From a virus: a DNA stretch of 24,238 nucleotides. The DNA lies in the IMG/VR virus record IMGVR_UViG_3300045146_000025, positions 1 to 24,238 of that record, one strand, 5' to 3'. The position numbers and the translations under genes are program-made. Below are positions 1 to 11,358 of the stretch, one piece after another (within the stretch, counting starts at the first letter, position 1; each line of letters starts with the position of its first letter). A model generated the notes under the pieces. It worked only from the letters and a program-made list of their open reading frames with translations. It ran no database searches and was not told the origin of the DNA.

Positions 1-1924
1 CTGCGATTAACCGCTTCAAATCCAACACTGTCCGTGAATCCAATATGCCATCGACCTGTACGGTATCGCCTGAGATATTAATGCTCGGCGCAGGAGCTCT
101 ACCGGTCCGATTGATATAGGACAGTGTCGGAAGCGTAAAAGAGTTGACGGACGACCTTTGGGTTACGAATTCGCCGGTCTGCATGATGACCCGTCTTTCA
201 TCGGGCCGAAGCCCCCCGGCGTGCATATATCCCCCCCCATGCATCACCATTCCGCCCTCGTGCCTCATGGCGTTGGCCCAAATCCCCCCGGTTGCCGCTA
301 CTCCGGCTTTCACTTGCGGGAAAATCAGGGTCAGAATCCATAATGCCGCGGCGCGTGCAGCGATCTGCGCCAATGCGTCAAACATCGAGGACATAAATAC
401 TTGAGCAACTTTCTGGAACGTCGATTTTGCTTTCCCAAAAATCTTTTCCCACAAAGTATTGAACTCATTCGAAAGAACGCTTCCGACGGACGAGAAGGCG
501 TTCATGATGGCCGATCCGGTTGCCTGTCCGCCGGTGCCAATGTCCTCCCATGCTATCTGCCAGGTTTCGCTTGCCTGCTGTGCAGCGCGTTCTGCCGCTG
601 TTCCAATATCTTCCACGGGCGGGGCATTTTCAACAGACATTCCGCCCTCTTTCGACTTCCCGGCTCCCCTGGGGCCTCCCCAATTGGGGGCCAAATCCAT
701 CGTGGCTCCCTGGAACCCGGCCTTGAAATTCGCGCCGGCCGCTGCGCCTTCGGCTTTGGCTTTTGCTTGATCCGCTTCGATCTTTACCTTGTCTGCCTCG
801 ATATTCCGTTTCGCCGTCAACCAGGCGTTTTGTATGTTGGCAATAGAGGTATTCCAGACCTTTTCCGTGGTCGCGATCGCATCCCGTGGCGCCTTGATAA
901 ATTCGTCCCATGCCGCTTTTATTTCGGATGGTCTGAGCGTCATGACACCGTTCAGCATCCGCCCCAGGGCGTTCAATTGTGTGAAGGTCGAAGAAAACCA
1001 CGCATTGAAAACCGTCCCAACGATCTTGACTGCGTTCCAAACCGTTATCAATCCGTCCAGAACGTTTTCAAACGCAATGGCTATATTTGTAATCCATCTT
1101 TCCATTTCTCCGTTCTTGATAAATGTCTGAATTTCTTTGGTCCAATCCTCTATCGTTGGGCCAAATTTGTGCATAATTATTTTACCAATTCCCTCGGATA
1201 CTTTATCGATATGATTTTTGAGTTGCTGGACTTTTGCGGAAAATGTGGTCACGCCAGCTGCGGATTCGCCGAATTTCTGAATCAGCAAGGTTTTAGCCGC
1301 AGCCCACTTTTCTTCCGCCGTCATGTTCTCTTTGATCAATCCGTTCGAGGCCCTCAACTTTGGAATGTAGCGGCCGAGCATTTCGACTTCGCCGGCCATC
1401 GCCATCCCTACGTACCGGGAGGCTGTTCCGACATCGAACAGCCCCGATTTCGCCATCGCCAACGCGATGTTGGTTCCCTCAAACGCACCCTTAACGTTGC
1501 CACTCAACTGAATGATTTCCTGAAGTGCAGGAATAAATTCATCCTCGCCGAACTGAGTCGTCGCCATGACCTGCTGGGAATATGCTTCGATTTTCCCTTT
1601 GACCGAATCATAGGACACCCCGGCCAATTCGATGGCAGATTTCAACCGGGCGAATTGTACCTCGTCCTCCATCGCTGCTTTCGTCACATCAATGATTGCG
1701 GCCGCGAAACCCGTAAACCCCATCATGGCCGGGAGGCCGGTCATGAAGGATTTCATCTTATTCCCCAGGCTCGCGATCCCGCCCTCGATCTTCTGCCAGG
1801 ACGATTTCATCTTGTTCCCGGCCTGCTCCACAGCATTAGGGAGCTTGCCGAGTTCGCCCTCGATTTGCTTGATGCCCGTGATCCCCTTTTTGGGGTCCAC
1901 TATGATTTCTAACTTGATAGCGAT
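1..1924 (-). CDS. Tail tape measure protein (C-terminus cut by window edge)
   Basis: The frame stays open for about 641 codons to the left edge. Tape measure proteins set tail length and are threaded through the tail tube. The N-terminal part is helical and charged; about residues 50-75 hold a Gly/Ala-rich hydrophobic stretch (FMTGLPAMMGFTGFAAAII). Around 1150-1300 is a segment resembling other tape measure proteins (KLRASNGLIKENMTAEEKW). A late Gly-rich region leads to GLRPDERRVIMQTGEFV, a pattern I know from tape measure C-termini. A run of eight Gs near 231-238 keeps the frame. No ATG or TTG starts the frame. Candidates are an ATC codon at 1924 preceded by GGAG with a 6-nt gap, giving an N-terminus MAIKLEIIVD, a GTG at 1900, or entry by frameshift from the preceding gene. 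The position after the chaperone fits. The assignment is firm; the start is not. Confidence 0.88.
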   Translation of the reverse strand, partial: MAIKLEIIVDPKKGITGIKQIEGELGKLPNAVEQAGNKMKSSWQKIEGGIASLGNKMKSFMTGLPAMMGFTGFAAAIIDVTKAAMEDEVQFARLKSAIELAGVSYDSVKGKIEAYSQQVMATTQFGEDEFIPALQEIIQLSGNVKGAFEGTNIALAMAKSGLFDVGTASRYVGMAMAGEVEMLGRYIPKLRASNGLIKENMTAEEKWAAAKTLLIQKFGESAAGVTTFSAKVQQLKNHIDKVSEGIGKIIMHKFGPTIEDWTKEIQTFIKNGEMERWITNIAIAFENVLDGLITVWNAVKIVGTVFNAWFSSTFTQLNALGRMLNGVMTLRPSEIKAAWDEFIKAPRDAIATTEKVWNTSIANIQNAWLTAKRNIEADKVKIEADQAKAKAEGAAAGANFKAGFQGATMDLAPNWGGPRGAGKSKEGGMSVENAPPVEDIGTAAERAAQQASETWQIAWEDIGTGGQATGSAIMNAFSSVGSVLSNEFNTLWEKIFGKAKSTFQKVAQVFMSSMFDALAQIAARAAALWILTLIFPQVKAGVAATGGIWANAMRHEGGMVMHGGGYMHAGGLRPDERRVIMQTGEFVTQRSSVNSFTLPTLSYINRTGRAPAPSINISGDTVQVDGILDSRTVLDLKRLIA

Positions 1925-2280
1925 GGAATGCTCCGAATCTTTTTTTGATTCATCTGATTGATTGTTGAGATGATGATCTTCAGGTTTTCGTAAAATTCCA
2001 CAATTTGATCCTCGGTGAATCGGTAATCCCGGAACGTCTTTACGACCTGAAGCCCCTCTCCGAAGTGGCCCAAATCAAAAAGCCCCTGATCATCGAATCC
2101 GCCTCTCGAGAAAAACAGTATATCCTCGAAAAAATCGAATACCTCGCGGTTCGTTTCAAAAAGATCAACTCTTCCACAGACATCGCAGGGAGGTTCCCGA
2201 TCATCCTCTTCATACCGTTCAGTACACCGACCGCAACTTTCCCCTTTGAGCTTGAACCATTGCTCGGCGTACTCTACGAG
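1909..2280 (-). CDS. Frameshift extension of the tail assembly chaperone (T-like part)
   Basis: This minus-strand frame is open for 123 codons beyond the slippery site of the preceding chaperone and ends at TAG 1909-1911. Between its upstream in-frame TGA and the first 70 or so codons I find no ATG, GTG or TTG, so it is probably read only as a -1 extension, giving a product of about 234 residues. That is the lambda G/GT arrangement, in which the longer form bridges tail tube and tape measure during assembly. The extension begins LVEYAEQWFKLKGE, then carries two Cys pairs (CGRC and CDVC, 19 residues between the first Cys of each) that look like a zinc knuckle, followed by an acidic aromatic region and a basic C-terminus. 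The last codons overlap the tape measure frame. Function is inferred from position and layout. Confidence 0.75.
   Translation of the reverse strand, partial: LVEYAEQWFKLKGESCGRCTERYEEDDREPPCDVCGRVDLFETNREVFDFFEDILFFSRGGFDDQGLFDLGHFGEGLQVVKTFRDYRFTEDQIVEFYENLKIIISTINQMNQKKIRSIPSLSS
1939..1945 (-). other. Second slippery heptamer A AAA AAG at the tape measure junction
   Basis: Within a run of seven As, the chaperone extension frame reads CAA AAA AAG, which contains A AAA AAG, the heptamer used in E. coli dnaX. A -1 slip here continues GAT TCG GAG CAT TCC ATC GCT, exactly the tape measure frame, ten codons before the extension frame's own TAG. I see no upstream Shine-Dalgarno stimulator and no clear downstream hairpin. 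It may be functional, a chance A-run, or the trace of an assembly error of one base. Confidence 0.4.
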
Positions 2281-2960: not shown

Positions 2961-4085
2961 TCAGTTCTCCGTCAAGTAATTGGTAGAATGATCATTGGTT
3001 AACATGATGACCATTTCCTTGTTCTTTTTAAGTTGGATATTGGACCATTCGGAAGCAAACTGGTCGGATGCGGGTATATAAGCCCTGCAATTGTGTTTCG
3101 GGCGAAGGATTCCCGCGCCTGCGACATTGGCATCGACTTTTTCGAATTTGAACGCCGAAAAATAAATCCCGAAATTGTATGCTCCGCTCGTCGCTTTCAT
3201 GGAGCAATACCGTTCCGTTCCGGCGTCGTAATTGTCAAACAGCGAATCCGATTCATGCCGCAAGAAATCGAATCCGAACGTCACCTCGCGCATCTCATCA
3301 CGCACCGGTTCCTTGATGTACAAGCCCGTGGCGGTGTCGCGTTCCGCGGCCAGTTTATTGTCGAGTGTCACTTCAAAATTCGACACTCCATATTCAGTCC
3401 CGTTGATCGAGAACACATAATCCGCGAAGAGAATGTTGCCCTGATTCGTGGCGAGCGTGAAATTCGCGGAATTGTACGATCCTCTGGAATAGTTGTATCC
3501 AATCAGGTCGAAAACAAATGATGTTCCTTTCGGTTCTGCTTTGATTGTCATCTTGTTGACCATCACGGAAAAAAATCGCCAGTCCGTGACCTGTTTTGCA
3601 ATGATGAGGCATCCGGATCGGACCTTTTGGTCGTTCGAATCCCACGTCCCTCCGCCCCCGCCGGACGGCAACCGATCCCCGTCGAGCGTCCATGTCTGCC
3701 GGTGTAGGACATCGTCCAGCTCGAATACGTGTTTATATTTTGCCGATACTGTCTCGGGCGATCCGTGATATGTCGCGCCCGCGACGTTGGGATTCTCCCA
3801 CCCCATCGCCATACAGAGCAGCCTCCCGATGTTGTTGTATCGGCCCTGAAGTGTGATAGGCCCAGCAATGTCTCGCGCCACCAGGTCAGAGGCCCTGAGG
3901 CCGGCCTTCCCTTCAATGGTCTGATCGGCTTCGAGCTTGTTGTCGCCGGCAACGCCTTCCGAAAGAAAAGGAACCTGATCCCCCGAACCCAAATCGGAAT
4001 CACCCCAATCGGTTTTCGGGTAAGCAGATTCTTCAGTGTCTTTTTTAAAGCCGGCCTTTGAAATTGCGCCGAGTCCTGTCGACAT
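2961..4085 (-). CDS. Tail tube-like protein, second copy (major tail protein candidate)
   Basis: A 374-residue protein starting MSTGLG, like its upstream neighbour. Both are preceded by TGAGGTGA as ribosome binding site and share an N-terminal layout: VPF-[TL]-[DS]-E, a GKAG motif, a DL segment, a hydrophobic LL-x-MA-x-G segment, then a WRF motif. The rest is rich in beta-strand patterns with a Gly5 linker near residue 143. Major tail proteins polymerise into the tail tube and lie between tail terminator and chaperone genes, as here. It is longer than its paralogue, with extra material between the GKAG and WRF motifs and at the C-terminus. Which copy forms the tube cannot be told from sequence. 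Confidence 0.68.
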   Translation of the reverse strand: MSTGLGAISKAGFKKDTEESAYPKTDWGDSDLGSGDQVPFLSEGVAGDNKLEADQTIEGKAGLRASDLVARDIAGPITLQGRYNNIGRLLCMAMGWENPNVAGATYHGSPETVSAKYKHVFELDDVLHRQTWTLDGDRLPSGGGGGTWDSNDQKVRSGCLIIAKQVTDWRFFSVMVNKMTIKAEPKGTSFVFDLIGYNYSRGSYNSANFTLATNQGNILFADYVFSINGTEYGVSNFEVTLDNKLAAERDTATGLYIKEPVRDEMREVTFGFDFLRHESDSLFDNYDAGTERYCSMKATSGAYNFGIYFSAFKFEKVDANVAGAGILRPKHNCRAYIPASDQFASEWSNIQLKKNKEMVIMLTNDHSTNYLTEN

Positions 4086-4093
4086 GCATCACC

Positions 4094-5035
4094 TCACGTA
4101 ATCGTTATGCGTGCTTCGTCCGTGATTGCCGCCATTGGCGTGTTCGAAATGTTCCGGAAACAATCGAACATTACATCATGCACTACCGTTTCCGCCCCAG
4201 CAACTGGCGCTTTCGCATCGGAAATTTTCATTTCGGGAATTTCCAGCAGGAACGTTTTTGTCTCATCGGTGAAATAAAAATCGGATTGAAGTTTTGTTCC
4301 CGCGTCGGCCCAATCTAGGAGCGTATCGACGGTATACCGATTGAATTTTGCTTCGAGCTTTACCGTTCTGAATCCATTGATCACCGGGACCAGGGCGGTT
4401 CTCTGTTCATTGGTGAAGTCGTCTTTTTTCAGGCCCCGTGTGATGGTGAACTTGAACGATTCGAGGCCCATTTGGTCCTCGGCCGCTAAAGCATCGGCTT
4501 GGTCAGCAATCCGTATTCGAGAGGCCGAGGTTGAATTTGAATAACGAATCCTTGATGGTGTCGTCAGCGAAAGAGACGGGAATGCCGTAGCCGATCTCGT
4601 CAGGTCACAACAAACCAGACCGTATTCGGTCGTCAGGACTTTTCCCTTTTCCCCTGCGATGACGAACTGTTCCACCATGCACCCGTTAAATCGCCATCGG
4701 GAGACATTTTTTTCAATCTCCATCCGAAAGCACTTGGTCTGATTGTCCAACATGGTGAACACGCCCGCGGTGTTCGTGCCGAACGCCATCTCGAGGAGCG
4801 TTTGACAATTGTAATAATCAAGATCGACCTTGAGATTCCCTTCGATCTTGATGAGCCCCAGATCGGGCGCAGCCCTGCCCGCCTTGCCCTGGAGAACGCT
4901 GTTTTCGATCAGCTCCGTAACTTTCGAGACGGATTCGTCGGTAAACGGGACCAGTTCGTCCACAGCGACCCAGGACGCACCCCACGCACAGGACGTGATC
5001 CCGACTTTTGCAAGAGTACCCAAACCGGTCGACAT
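4094..5035 (-). CDS. Tail tube-like protein, first copy (major tail protein candidate)
   Basis: A 313-residue protein beginning MSTGLGTLAKVG, located between the tail terminator candidate and a longer paralogue. Shared landmarks with the neighbour are VPFTDE near residue 31, GKAG near 51, a LLEMAFG segment near 83, and SRWRF near 113. The C-terminal half is beta-rich with a Lys/Asp-rich patch (LKKDDFTNEQR). The start at ATG 5035 follows TGAGGTGA. The role is taken from position and the usual single tube gene at this place in siphoviruses. The two genes are separated by only 8 bases, suggesting an old tandem duplication. Confidence 0.68.
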   Translation of the reverse strand: MSTGLGTLAKVGITSCAWGASWVAVDELVPFTDESVSKVTELIENSVLQGKAGRAAPDLGLIKIEGNLKVDLDYYNCQTLLEMAFGTNTAGVFTMLDNQTKCFRMEIEKNVSRWRFNGCMVEQFVIAGEKGKVLTTEYGLVCCDLTRSATAFPSLSLTTPSRIRYSNSTSASRIRIADQADALAAEDQMGLESFKFTITRGLKKDDFTNEQRTALVPVINGFRTVKLEAKFNRYTVDTLLDWADAGTKLQSDFYFTDETKTFLLEIPEMKISDAKAPVAGAETVVHDVMFDCFRNISNTPMAAITDEARITIT

Positions 5036-6745: not shown

Positions 6746-7087
6746 TCAATCCTTGCCGACCAATTGCACCGTGACAGTGACCTTCGGGGTTCCGGTTCCG
6801 CCGACCACGAATTTCATTCGGAGGTATCGTCCAAAATTGGTGATCTTGACGATCTGCTTCGAAATACCCGTGAGCTGGGCGAACACATCCGCCCGGTCAA
6901 ACCATGTCGAACCATCTACCGATTGTTGAAGCGTTGCATCGTAGGTCTGCGTCGTACCGCTCACGGCCGTGATGTTGGTCAGGATCAAAGCTTCGTTCAA
7001 TTCCCCCACGTCGACCGCGTCGGAATAGGTCGTCCCGGCGGCTTTTAGGGTCGACGGCAGGACCGTATGGACAAGACACATCCTCAT
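6746..7087 (-). CDS. Small structural protein, paralogue of the preceding gene
   Basis: About 113 residues from ATG 7087, with AAGGATTGACG upstream. It matches its neighbour over nearly all its length: VGEL-x-EA-x-IL-x-N-[IV]-TA, SG-T, D-x-x-LQ-S, STWFD-x-AD-x-F-x-QLT, [IL]-VKITNFG, and a shared GKD C-terminus. The fold is likely a beta-sandwich; the text resembles small phage proteins that describe noise around a mean (STWFD, NFGRYLRMKF), often found in head or tail operons without known role. The same AAGGATTGACGATG junction follows both copies, so the duplicated unit probably included the intergenic spacer. Function unknown. Confidence 0.8.
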   Translation of the reverse strand: MRMCLVHTVLPSTLKAAGTTYSDAVDVGELNEALILTNITAVSGTTQTYDATLQQSVDGSTWFDRADVFAQLTGISKQIVKITNFGRYLRMKFVVGGTGTPKVTVTVQLVGKD

Positions 7088-7089
7088 CG

Positions 7090-7434
7090 TCAATCCTTCC
7101 CGGCCAAATAGACAGCCGTCGTCATGGTGGGAGTGTTGGTCCCGCCAACCGTAAGCTTGAGCCGGATGAACTTTCCGAAGTTCGTAATCTTGACCAAAAG
7201 TTTTGCCACGTCGGTCAGCTGAGTGAACGAATCGGCCATGTCGAACCAGGTCGAATTGTCCGGCGAAGTTTGCAGCACCGTGTCGAGCGTCGGGGAGGTC
7301 CCGGAACGCGCCGTGACGTTGATCAGGATTACAGCCTCCAGGAGTTCACCGACGTTGAACCCGGACGTGTAATTATCTCCTTCCTCAAGGGCGGCCGAGG
7401 CTTGAAGAACGTGGGTCATGCTGAATCTGGGCAT
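7090..7434 (-). CDS. Small structural protein, first of a tandem pair
   Basis: About 114 residues from ATG 7434, which follows AAAGGACAAATAAA; an upstream ATG at 7458 would overlap the preceding gene. It reads MPRFSMTHVLQASAALEEG, then VGELLEAVILINVTARSG, SPDNSTWFDMADSFTQLTD, LLVKITNFGKFIRLKLTVGG and ends AGKD. The alternating hydrophobic pattern suggests beta strands throughout. It is a tandem paralogue of the next gene. It lies between the capsid and decoration genes and the connector, so a virion component is likely; the exact role is not known to me. Confidence 0.8.
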   Translation of the reverse strand: MPRFSMTHVLQASAALEEGDNYTSGFNVGELLEAVILINVTARSGTSPTLDTVLQTSPDNSTWFDMADSFTQLTDVAKLLVKITNFGKFIRLKLTVGGTNTPTMTTAVYLAGKD

Positions 7435-7435
7435 T

Positions 7436-7690
7436 TTATTTGTCCTTTTTGGTTTCACTTTGCGATAGAACCGGAACCGGTTTCTCGGGTTGTTTGACGA
7501 TCACGTCATATCCGAGTTCTTTCATGACGCGCTGTAATTCCGGATTTCCTTTTGCGTTGATGATCTGTTCCGTGCGGGCTTTCATGGTGATGAGCTTTTG
7601 GACTGCCTGGCTTTCATATCCTCGCGCCGCCATCCAGACGACGATCCAGGACAGGACCACCATGACGATTTCACGCCAGTTCTTTTTCAT
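7436..7690 (-). CDS. Small membrane-anchored hypothetical protein
   Basis: An 84-residue protein with one N-terminal transmembrane segment (about residues 7-22, REIVMVVLSWIVVWMAARG) after a basic start, then a charged helical part and a Pro/Lys-rich tail (KQPEKPVPVLSQSETKKDK). The start at ATG 7690 follows GAGGAGAAAGGAA. Its stop lies two bases before the next start. A membrane protein in the middle of structural genes is odd; holin-like or spanin-like roles are possible, but nothing specific supports them. Confidence 0.7.
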   Translation of the reverse strand: MKKNWREIVMVVLSWIVVWMAARGYESQAVQKLITMKARTEQIINAKGNPELQRVMKELGYDVIVKQPEKPVPVLSQSETKKDK

Positions 7691-7792: not shown

Positions 7793-8215
7793 TCAAGCCC
7801 TCGCGGGTTCCCAAGTGACGAGCGTCATGAGGTTCGGGATTGCGACACCCGAATTGACCTCTTCGAACTGAAGCGTCAGCACGTCGCCCGCTTCCATCTC
7901 GACCCCTGAAGTCAGATAGATAGCATTCAGGGGAATATTTTTGAGATCGAGCGCAGTGAGATTGACGCCGGTCGGCAGATCAAGATTCCCAACTTCCGTA
8001 GACCCGGAACCGTCTCCGTTCTTAAAAATGACATTCAGGTTTTTCGTGTTGGTGTCGTTTCCCGTCACCGCTGTCCGAGGCACGAAATCCACCTGCGTGA
8101 CGCGGCATTTCTGAGGCGCGCAGAACAGCGCCGCCTCGTACGTCGCTGTGACTGCCGCCACCGTGGGAATAAAACCCTGTTGAGCGCGTTTACCCAAAAG
8201 AGCAGACCAAAGCAT
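7793..8215 (-). CDS. Capsid decoration-like protein, second of a tandem pair
   Basis: A 140-residue protein aligned end to end with its neighbour: MLWS-x-LLG at the start, APQKCRVTQVD, AVTG, KNLN, TEVGNLDL, VNLTA-x-DLKNIPLNA-x-YL, GVE-x-EAGDVL and a TW-x-P-x-A C-terminus, without gaps larger than a few residues. Strand-like patterns and lack of charged helices fit a small beta-rich virion protein. Its place directly after the capsid gene is where head decoration proteins usually lie; this is position-based. A hairpin follows its stop. Confidence 0.78.
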   Translation of the reverse strand: MLWSALLGKRAQQGFIPTVAAVTATYEAALFCAPQKCRVTQVDFVPRTAVTGNDTNTKNLNVIFKNGDGSGSTEVGNLDLPTGVNLTALDLKNIPLNAIYLTSGVEMEAGDVLTLQFEEVNSGVAIPNLMTLVTWEPARA

Positions 8216-8227
8216 GGTTTCCCCCCT

Positions 8228-8650
8228 TTAGGCCGCGGACGGTCCCCAAGTGATGAGCGCGATGCAGTCGGGCATGTCAACGCCATTCCCGACTTTTTCA
8301 TACGACAGCACCAGCACGTCTCCTGCTTCCAGTTCCACGCCCGGTGCGAGATACGTGGCATTGAGCGGGATGTTCTTCAGGTCGGCCGCCGTGAGATTCA
8401 CGTCCGCCGAAAGATCGAGATTGCCGACCTCGGTCGTTCCTGCCCCAGCAGATCCGGCATTCAAAATGTTGAGGTTTTTCCGGTCGGTTCCGTCGCCCGT
8501 GACGGCAGCCTGTGGGATGATGTCGACCTGTGTCACCCGGCATTTTTGCGGGGCCACGAACAACGGATGGGATTCGGTAGTCGTGGCGGCCGCCACTGCC
8601 GGAAGGAATCCCGTCGTCACCCGCGAACCCAGAAGATCACTCCAAAGCAT
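8228..8650 (-). CDS. Capsid decoration-like protein, first of a tandem pair
   Basis: A 140-residue protein from ATG 8650, same length as the next gene and similar throughout; more than half of positions look identical by eye. Its N-terminus MLWSDLLGSRVTTGFLPAV, the core APQKCRVTQVDIIPQ and the closing ITWGPSAA correspond to the copy downstream. Twelve bases separate the genes. The two could form a hetero-oligomeric decoration or act on distinct lattice sites, but this is speculation; neither has a catalytic motif. Confidence 0.78.
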   Translation of the reverse strand: MLWSDLLGSRVTTGFLPAVAAATTTESHPLFVAPQKCRVTQVDIIPQAAVTGDGTDRKNLNILNAGSAGAGTTEVGNLDLSADVNLTAADLKNIPLNATYLAPGVELEAGDVLVLSYEKVGNGVDMPDCIALITWGPSAA

Positions 8651-9042: not shown

Positions 9043-11358
9043 TCAACCCACGGTATTGCGATGGGCACAGCGCCAGTCAAGCAAACCGCGACCGTAGATA
9101 TGCCGAATCTTGAACGTGGTCTTGTCCGCCGTGAACATGGACCCGGACAGCGGATTGTCCTGCACGAACAGTTCCGGTTCCTCGCGGCCCTGGAAGAACC
9201 CCACTTCGAGGCCGGGGCAATCCCGCGGATCGGCGACACAATACCAGTCATTGGTATCGGACCAGTAATCCACTTGGATCGGCTCGATGCCCATTGCAGA
9301 CACCATCCGAACGTCGTTGTTTGCGGAACTCGTGACCTTTTCGGTCTTGAGCGCCGTAAAGACGGCATCCGCGAGATCGATCGGGTAGAGCAAATACTTC
9401 GGTTTGATGCCGAGCCGCTTGGAGCTCGACAGCTCCGCGAATTTGCCCATTGCGACCCAGACCGCAATCAGCGCCGTCTGGCTGAATGCCGTGGTCAACA
9501 GGTTGACATGCGATCCGGCATGGAACCATACCACTCCGTCCGGGGCCGTAATGGTGTTGTTGACGAACGTATCGAAAATGAATTCATTCAGCGTGTGCGC
9601 AGCTGCGCGGGCAAGCTTCCGGGGAATCCTCTGGACTGCGCCCACGTCGTCGTTGACGATGGTTTCCCAGGTCAGATCCTCGATCCCGCCGTATTTCGAC
9701 GGCGTGTACGTGGCGTGCACGTCGGTCGGGCTGGTCAGCGAAGGATAAGGCTGGCCTTCGCTCACGGCTCCCAGGTTCTCGTATCCGCCGATCTGGGTCC
9801 GGTCCTGTGCCCGCATGTCGGACACTGGAACGATCGACACGACCTTGCGCCACTGATCCAGACCGGATTCGGCGTATTCCTTCATCAGCGACTTATTGAC
9901 TGCGTTGCCGATCACCTGATCCCAATTGGATTGACTGATCGATTCGCCGAACCGACGCAGGCCGGGAGCGTTCTTGATTTCGCGGGTAAACCGTTCGTCA
10001 CCGGTGATGTCCACGTACAACTGGCGGATCGAGCGGAACCGCGGGGTTTTGTTCACATCCTGCCCCAGGAAAAAGCCATCCACGGCTTCCTGGAGCTTGT
10101 CGGCTTCATCCTTCTGGACGGTTGCACCGTATCCTTTGATCTGGTGGGTCTGGGCAAATGCCCCGATGACCTTTTCCCAGGATTCCAGGGATTCCCTGAG
10201 ATTTTTCTCCTGGAATACGATTACGTTCCCCTTGTCATCCGAGAACTGTTTCCGAATCGCATCCTTCGCCTCCCGGGGCAGGCTGGAACCAGCCAGGGCT
10301 TCGTTCAGCATTGCCCGGCATTCGATCCGGGAAATGCGATCGTCCTGGTCGGTGGATTTTGCCGTGGGCGGAGGCAGTTCCGGCTCCGGCTCCGGTTCCT
10401 CCCTGTGATTCAGGGCTTCGATGATTTTATCTACCGCGGCCGTGTCCATTTTGGCGGACAGGGTTTCACGGACCACATCGAGAACCTTGTCCTGATCCGG
10501 ATTGTCTCCGAGCGCCTTCACTTTGTCGGGCGCAACGGATTCGAGCAGTTTCAGCAGTTTTTCCAACATCTGAAAATCCTCCAATTGTTTTTGGTTTTCA
10601 CTTTCGATCATTTTGAGCAACCCCCCGCCGGCGGCCGGGTCCACCACCACGTCAACGGAATTGACTTTCAGGATTTTGCCAACCCAGTTAACCAACGTGC
10701 CGCCCATCTTTTTTGGATACGAGGTCCCTTCGGCTACATGGGAAAGGCCGAGGATGTCGCGTTTCCCTTTCCTGAACGCGCTCACCAACATGGTTTTCAT
10801 CCATGCGGCGTTTTCAAGGATGTTGAACGTCCCGTGGTTCGCCTGGGCGGATTCATTCCACGTCACACCGTCGATGAATCCCACGATGTCCTTGACCTTC
10901 TTCCCCGTGCCTTTCGAATGATCCTCATCGGACCGGGCCAGCACGCGAGCGCCTTCGTACAGGGGGGCTGCCTCTTTCAGGACTTCGGGCGGGTAATAAT
11001 TGCGATTCTTAGACAGTCCGGCCTTGATAATCTGCACCTCCCACGTCGAGCCTGTGTCGTCTTTGGCCTCGACCAAAGACATCTCGACCGGGAGCCGCAG
11101 GTTCTTCTCGCGGCCAACAAAATCCTCGAATTTGATTCCCTGCCTGTCGTTGTTCTTCGTGTCGGTTCCCTCCTTCATGACCCATTTTCCATCTTTCTTC
11201 TCGGCCATTTTGGACAGTACCGCGTTGGCCGTAGCTGTTGCTTTGCCGTCGTCTTTGTATTCCTCGAAGGCCGCGTTGAACGCCTTGATCCATGCGTCCA
11301 TCAATTTGGCCGGAAGCTTTTTCACCCAATCGGGAGCAGTTTTTGAAGTGTAAGGCAT
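9043..11358 (-). CDS. ChaB domain-prohead protease-scaffold-major capsid fusion
   Basis: A 771-residue protein joining several head functions. Residues 15-52 (LPAKLMDAWIKAFNAAFEEYKDDGK) resemble a ChaB-type domain. Residues 85-250 look like a Mu-I or S78-like prohead protease: strands, then H147 (DEDHSKG), S206 in LGLSHVAEG, and SVDVVVDPAAGGG near 234-246; I propose His147 and Ser206 as catalytic. Residues 255-430 are helical and charged with a Glu-Pro linker (about 319-331), fitting a scaffold. Residues 430-771 carry capsid-like text: RQLYVDITGDERFTREI, GGYENLGAVSEGQPYPSL, KLARAAAHTLNEFIFDTFVNN, LGIKPKYLLYP, FFQGREEPELFVQDNP. The protease would free the capsid domain during head maturation. 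ATG 11358 follows AAAGGGGAAAGTA. Domain calls are by eye. Confidence 0.85.
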   Translation of the reverse strand: MPYTSKTAPDWVKKLPAKLMDAWIKAFNAAFEEYKDDGKATATANAVLSKMAEKKDGKWVMKEGTDTKNNDRQGIKFEDFVGREKNLRLPVEMSLVEAKDDTGSTWEVQIIKAGLSKNRNYYPPEVLKEAAPLYEGARVLARSDEDHSKGTGKKVKDIVGFIDGVTWNESAQANHGTFNILENAAWMKTMLVSAFRKGKRDILGLSHVAEGTSYPKKMGGTLVNWVGKILKVNSVDVVVDPAAGGGLLKMIESENQKQLEDFQMLEKLLKLLESVAPDKVKALGDNPDQDKVLDVVRETLSAKMDTAAVDKIIEALNHREEPEPEPELPPPTAKSTDQDDRISRIECRAMLNEALAGSSLPREAKDAIRKQFSDDKGNVIVFQEKNLRESLESWEKVIGAFAQTHQIKGYGATVQKDEADKLQEAVDGFFLGQDVNKTPRFRSIRQLYVDITGDERFTREIKNAPGLRRFGESISQSNWDQVIGNAVNKSLMKEYAESGLDQWRKVVSIVPVSDMRAQDRTQIGGYENLGAVSEGQPYPSLTSPTDVHATYTPSKYGGIEDLTWETIVNDDVGAVQRIPRKLARAAAHTLNEFIFDTFVNNTITAPDGVVWFHAGSHVNLLTTAFSQTALIAVWVAMGKFAELSSSKRLGIKPKYLLYPIDLADAVFTALKTEKVTSSANNDVRMVSAMGIEPIQVDYWSDTNDWYCVADPRDCPGLEVGFFQGREEPELFVQDNPLSGSMFTADKTTFKIRHIYGRGLLDWRCAHRNTVG
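9388..9409. repeat. 22-bp near-repeat, copy in the capsid domain
   Basis: Partner of the copy at 8999-9020; one mismatch in 22. It encodes IKPKYLL in the capsid domain, a segment that is common in capsid proteins of this type, so this copy is likely the original. Confidence 0.6.

Follow-up and report, generated by a model that had tools for sequence, protein, structure and literature searches.

The window analysed here is the whole of the 24,238-base virus contig IMGVR_UViG_3300045146_000025. Every gene lies on the minus strand, and the reading order includes terminase, portal, a protease-capsid fusion, two tube-like genes, a G-like chaperone, its GT extension and, as the last gene, the tape measure (TMP), which is truncated by the contig end. 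The protease-major capsid fusion (9043-11358) has a ChaB-like N-terminal segment and is 38% identical to its counterpart in Microcystis phage Mae-JY22. The adjacent genes at 2961-4085 and 4094-5035 each match PF18906, a Pfam tail tube family, and share 31% identity with each other, which suggests either duplication of the tail tube or a second tube protein with a specialised role. Tandemly duplicated pairs of small genes are also present, at 7793-8215 and 8228-8650 (61% identity) and at 6746-7093 and 7090-7458 (52%). A second IMG/VR contig, 3300024333_000072, shows only 2 differences from the window in 10,605 bases (99.98% identity over 10.6 kb), both near window position 200; the two contigs could derive from related samples, and their habitats are perhaps not independent.

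The G-like tail assembly chaperone gene occupies positions 2274-2612, from an ATG at 2612 to a TAG at 2276-2274. Its product weakly matches the tail assembly chaperone family phrog_313 (E=0.0075), and both the gene order and the slippery ending are as in relatives. The 3' end of G reads AGA AAA AAC TCG TAG and thus contains the heptamer A_AAA_AAC (2286-2280), where a -1 shift opens the longer GT extension frame (1909-2280), with 123 codons after the slip, a CxxC...CxxC arrangement and a TAG stop at 1911-1909. The same heptamer is found at the equivalent place in Mae-JY22 (L088) and in loci L092, L095, L226/L248 and L326, and the window GT is homologous to that of L248/L226 (E about 3e-5). A slippery heptamer that ends G, a longer -1 frame and a location just before the TMP gene are the features of lambda-type G/GT pairs, and, by homology, we infer that GT is made from G by a -1 shift at A_AAA_AAC.

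The TMP gene (2-1924, minus strand) follows G and GT as a long frame of 641 or more codons that runs open to the contig end, and its product is similar to known tape measures (phrog_1533, E=4e-4) and has homologs at 30-33% across about 230-250 aa (E about 1e-24). The frame is open from 2074, and upstream of 1900 it contains no ATG, GTG or TTG; its first conventional start codon is the GTG at 1900-1898. The absence of an ATG or TTG start had been pointed out in the original prediction, which sought the origin of this protein in a second -1 slip, in initiation at ATC 1924 or GTG 1900, or in a one-base sequence error. Direct reading of the sequence places all of the signals that it invoked where it had put them. 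The GGAG core of a Shine-Dalgarno (SD) sequence (1934-1931) precedes the ATC at 1924-1922 by a 6-nt spacer, with a duplex energy of -5.8 kcal/mol, which falls among the values for other genes of the window; 5.7% of internal codons have an SD core at such spacing and the energy is equalled at 10%, giving a chance expectation of 6-10%. A start at this ATC would overlap the GT stop by 16 nt. The heptamer A_AAA_AAG (1945-1939, minus strand), read as CAA AAA AAG, is in the zero frame of GT, and a -1 slip there enters the TMP frame without a stop, as had been described.

No close relatives were found in the collections searched, and distant ones were therefore used to compare starts. Single-protein searches of viral contigs, with TMP, G, GT or the tube protein as query, returned nothing beyond the near-identical contig and, in the case of G, L004; a first scan of genome contigs gave no match; a viral scan with a GT alignment recovered only L248 and its twins; and a TMP search of a phage collection yielded only EBPR siphovirus 6, at 24%. 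Distant relatives were collected via an alignment of 11 capsid proteins, and whole genomes were then searched with TMP. Most informative are L248/L226, which can be aligned to the window in both GT and the TMP N-terminus, together with L317, L321, L326 and L324; the TMPs of these last four match that of the window over about 220-285 residues at 26-33% identity (E 1e-12 to 1e-25).

In all of these alignable TMPs, an ATG-GCN start (“MA”) lies within 1-3 residues of ATC 1924, at a place where the window has no ATG, GTG or TTG. Their N-termini read MANELKITLTVDDQG in L226/L248, MAGITLSIEVDDKG in L317, MAEKLQLVIEVDDKG in L321, MAGSKIYVTLQVDDKG in L326 and MAERKLDVVIAAQD in L324, and the window aligns with those of L226, L317, L321 and L326 as (I)A-IKLEIIVDPKKG. 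The alignment between the window and L226 begins at IKLEIIVD, upstream of GTG 1900, and has a score of 61; shuffled sequences average 26.5 (sd 4.8), and none of 2000 shuffles reaches the observed score. Moreover, when a profile of four relatives' N-termini is compared with all six frames of the window, the best match is the TMP frame (E=0.001), beginning two residues after ATC 1924 and six before GTG 1900. An ATG in relatives at the position of the ATC had been named in the original prediction as one observation that would exclude a second slip, and it is found here in distant but alignable relatives.

A broader comparison gives the same layout. All 33 further TMP loci start with ATG, GTG or TTG, and residue 2 is Ala or Ser in 24 of the 31 compared, followed by a hydrophobic strand; initiation at ATC 1924 yields just this arrangement. 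Against the use of ATC, it belongs to the weakest start codons, and not one of the about 38 relatives examined starts with it. The TMP of L092 begins TTG-GCT-ATC where the window reads ATC-GCT-ATC. This gene (L092, 15450), a homolog of the Mae-JY22 tape measure, overlaps its GT stop by 17 nt and is another case of a weak start at this junction; it points the same way as a tolerated weak TMP start.

On this evidence, the TMP is probably a separate protein initiated at ATC 1924 behind GGAG, inside the 3' end of GT, rather than a GT fusion. Of the options first put forward, this one, with the N-terminus MAIKLEIIVD, is the best supported, and the support comes through homology: in related TMP genes an ordinary ATG is the start codon at the equivalent point of the protein, which favours an ATC start over a second frameshift. 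It is the N-terminal homology that decides, and neither the heptamer nor the SD alone is decisive. The protein would begin fMet-AIKLEIIVDPKKG..., with initiator tRNA starting at the rare codon, positioned by GGAG, to give the product fMet-AIKLEIIVDPKKGITG..., and ribosomes translating GT would probably assist re-initiation across the 16-nt overlap. The expected outcome is weak synthesis. Lambda-type tails need few tape measure copies per virion, and thus a weak start would be tolerable, perhaps even of benefit.

One alternative is a second -1 frameshift at A_AAA_AAG, which would produce the TMP as the C-terminal portion of a GT-TMP (G-GT-TMP) fusion; in one variant, RNA polymerase adds an A rather than the ribosome slipping, and a junction peptide ...NQKKDSEHSIAIK is expected. 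The heptamer has the right phase for this and belongs to the sites most prone to shifting in E. coli (PMC5009743), and an in-frame AAAAAAN heptamer falls within the open overlap in just 2.9% of GT codon shuffles (22% for any X_XXY_YYZ). A_AAA_AAG also stands in the zero frame of two other genes (10714 and 15667), where slipping would serve no purpose. However, the site is not kept in relatives: the Lys-Lys of the L248/L226 GT at the heptamer position is encoded by AAG AAA, which is not slippery. Nor is the frame relation. In L226/L248, Mae-JY22 and L092, the TMP occupies the +1 frame with respect to GT and overlaps the GT stop by 8, 14 and 17 nt, respectively, and thus a -1 slip cannot join the two proteins there. 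In L095 the TMP start and GT stop share one base (TGATG), with no slippery heptamer before them, and in L317 and L326 a gap, of about 260 nt in L326, lies between GT and TMP, and the TMP is preceded by an SD and ATG. No slippery site joining GT to TMP was seen in the relatives examined. In addition, RNA structure downstream of the A run is not significant (fold z = -1.06), no SD-like stimulator is visible by eye upstream of the heptamer, and two serial shifts would yield very little TMP. We consider this second shift unlikely. The chaperone-extension-tape measure fusion originally envisaged finds no support in relatives, where GT and TMP are separate genes of differing relative frame and spacing, with ATG or TTG starts of their own; the compared sequences preserve the G-GT shift but no link between GT and TMP.

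The tape measure is preceded by a long gap in the prophage-like loci L321 (about 1180-1462) and L326 (about 1141-1402), in coordinates of the reverse complement of the locus. The L326 gap separates a GT homolog from the TMP, and inspection of L321 by eye revealed no GT.

Re-initiation at GTG 1900, 8 nt past the GT stop, would produce a TMP without its first 8 residues, and we judge it just as unlikely as the second slip. No other conventional start codon lies near the 5' end of the TMP frame, and this one is close enough behind the GT stop for coupling to be possible. However, it has no SD (-0.2 kcal/mol), and it falls within the stretch aligned with relatives, so that a start here would remove the N-terminal strand that they have in common. 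The upstream peptide AIKLEII resembles the relatives' N-terminus, implying that it is translated, and in no compared relative does the TMP begin directly at the (V)D position. GTG 1900, offered at first as an alternative to the ATC, is thus disfavoured as the main start.

Even if ATC 1924 is the start, the heptamer may have some effect. We judge A_AAA_AAG to be incidental, possibly weakly shifty, and a small amount of fusion may be made by a slip there alongside the ATC product. Since the site is shift-prone and ATC is inefficient, the fusion could rival the weak ATC product in amount. A function for such a second shift has nothing comparative in its favour and a low probability. In its strongest form, tandem -1 shifts at A_AAA_AAC and A_AAA_AAG would give a functional minor G-GT-TMP fusion that carries the chaperone covalently on the ruler, in addition to weak initiation at the ATC or in its place, and this we regard as quite improbable. 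About as slim are the chances that an ATG has been corrupted into the ATC, by mutation in this lineage or by a mistake common to both assemblies, or that the A run was miscounted: ATG stands there in all homologs and only metagenome contigs are at hand, but the two assemblies agree at the 7-A run and at ATC 1924, the remaining TMP frame is intact for 641 codons, and the one-base error first suggested is accordingly unlikely.

If initiation at ATC 1924 is true, a phage tail-length protein begins at a codon that gene callers ignore, and automatic annotation would either shorten it to GTG 1900 or propose a false frameshift. The gene would then also be a natural test case of whether weak start codons set a low tape measure dose. 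There is a more general lesson in the heptamer, namely that an in-frame shift-prone site lacking comparative support is not in itself evidence of frameshifting.

A literature search for phage tape measures with a non-canonical start found nothing; parallels come from bacterial genes. In mycobacteria, ATC with an SD initiates at a low but above-background level, and the ATT/ATC assay required the SD (PMC4633059); in Streptomyces, sigR starts at GTC, a C-ending codon with a reported regulatory use (PMC5472188). These starts are non-canonical and of low expression, as is proposed here, and an ATC-started TMP would join the known rare-start-codon genes; the window case differs in that it concerns a phage structural gene and is deduced from sequence alone. 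The programmed frameshift of dnaX (PMC5009743) uses a heptamer identical to that at 1945-1939, but the window site is without convincing stimulators and the fusion is not conserved. The tail block as a whole is alike to lambda G/GT and tape measure gene H, where, in what PMC5009743 relates of the work that it cites (Xu, Hendrix, Duda 2004), GT arises by a -1 slip close to the end of G and the TMP gene comes next; in the window, by contrast, the TMP would start at an ATC and overlap the GT stop, and an extra slippery heptamer happens to precede it. A further likeness is the tail block of the Desulfobacca MAG contig L226 and its IMG/VR counterpart L248, which shares the A_AAA_AAC slip, the CxxC GT, a TMP overlapping the GT stop and a homologous MA-strand-VDxxG N-terminus, and which differs from the window in its ATG start, its +1 TMP frame relative to GT and its 8-nt overlap.
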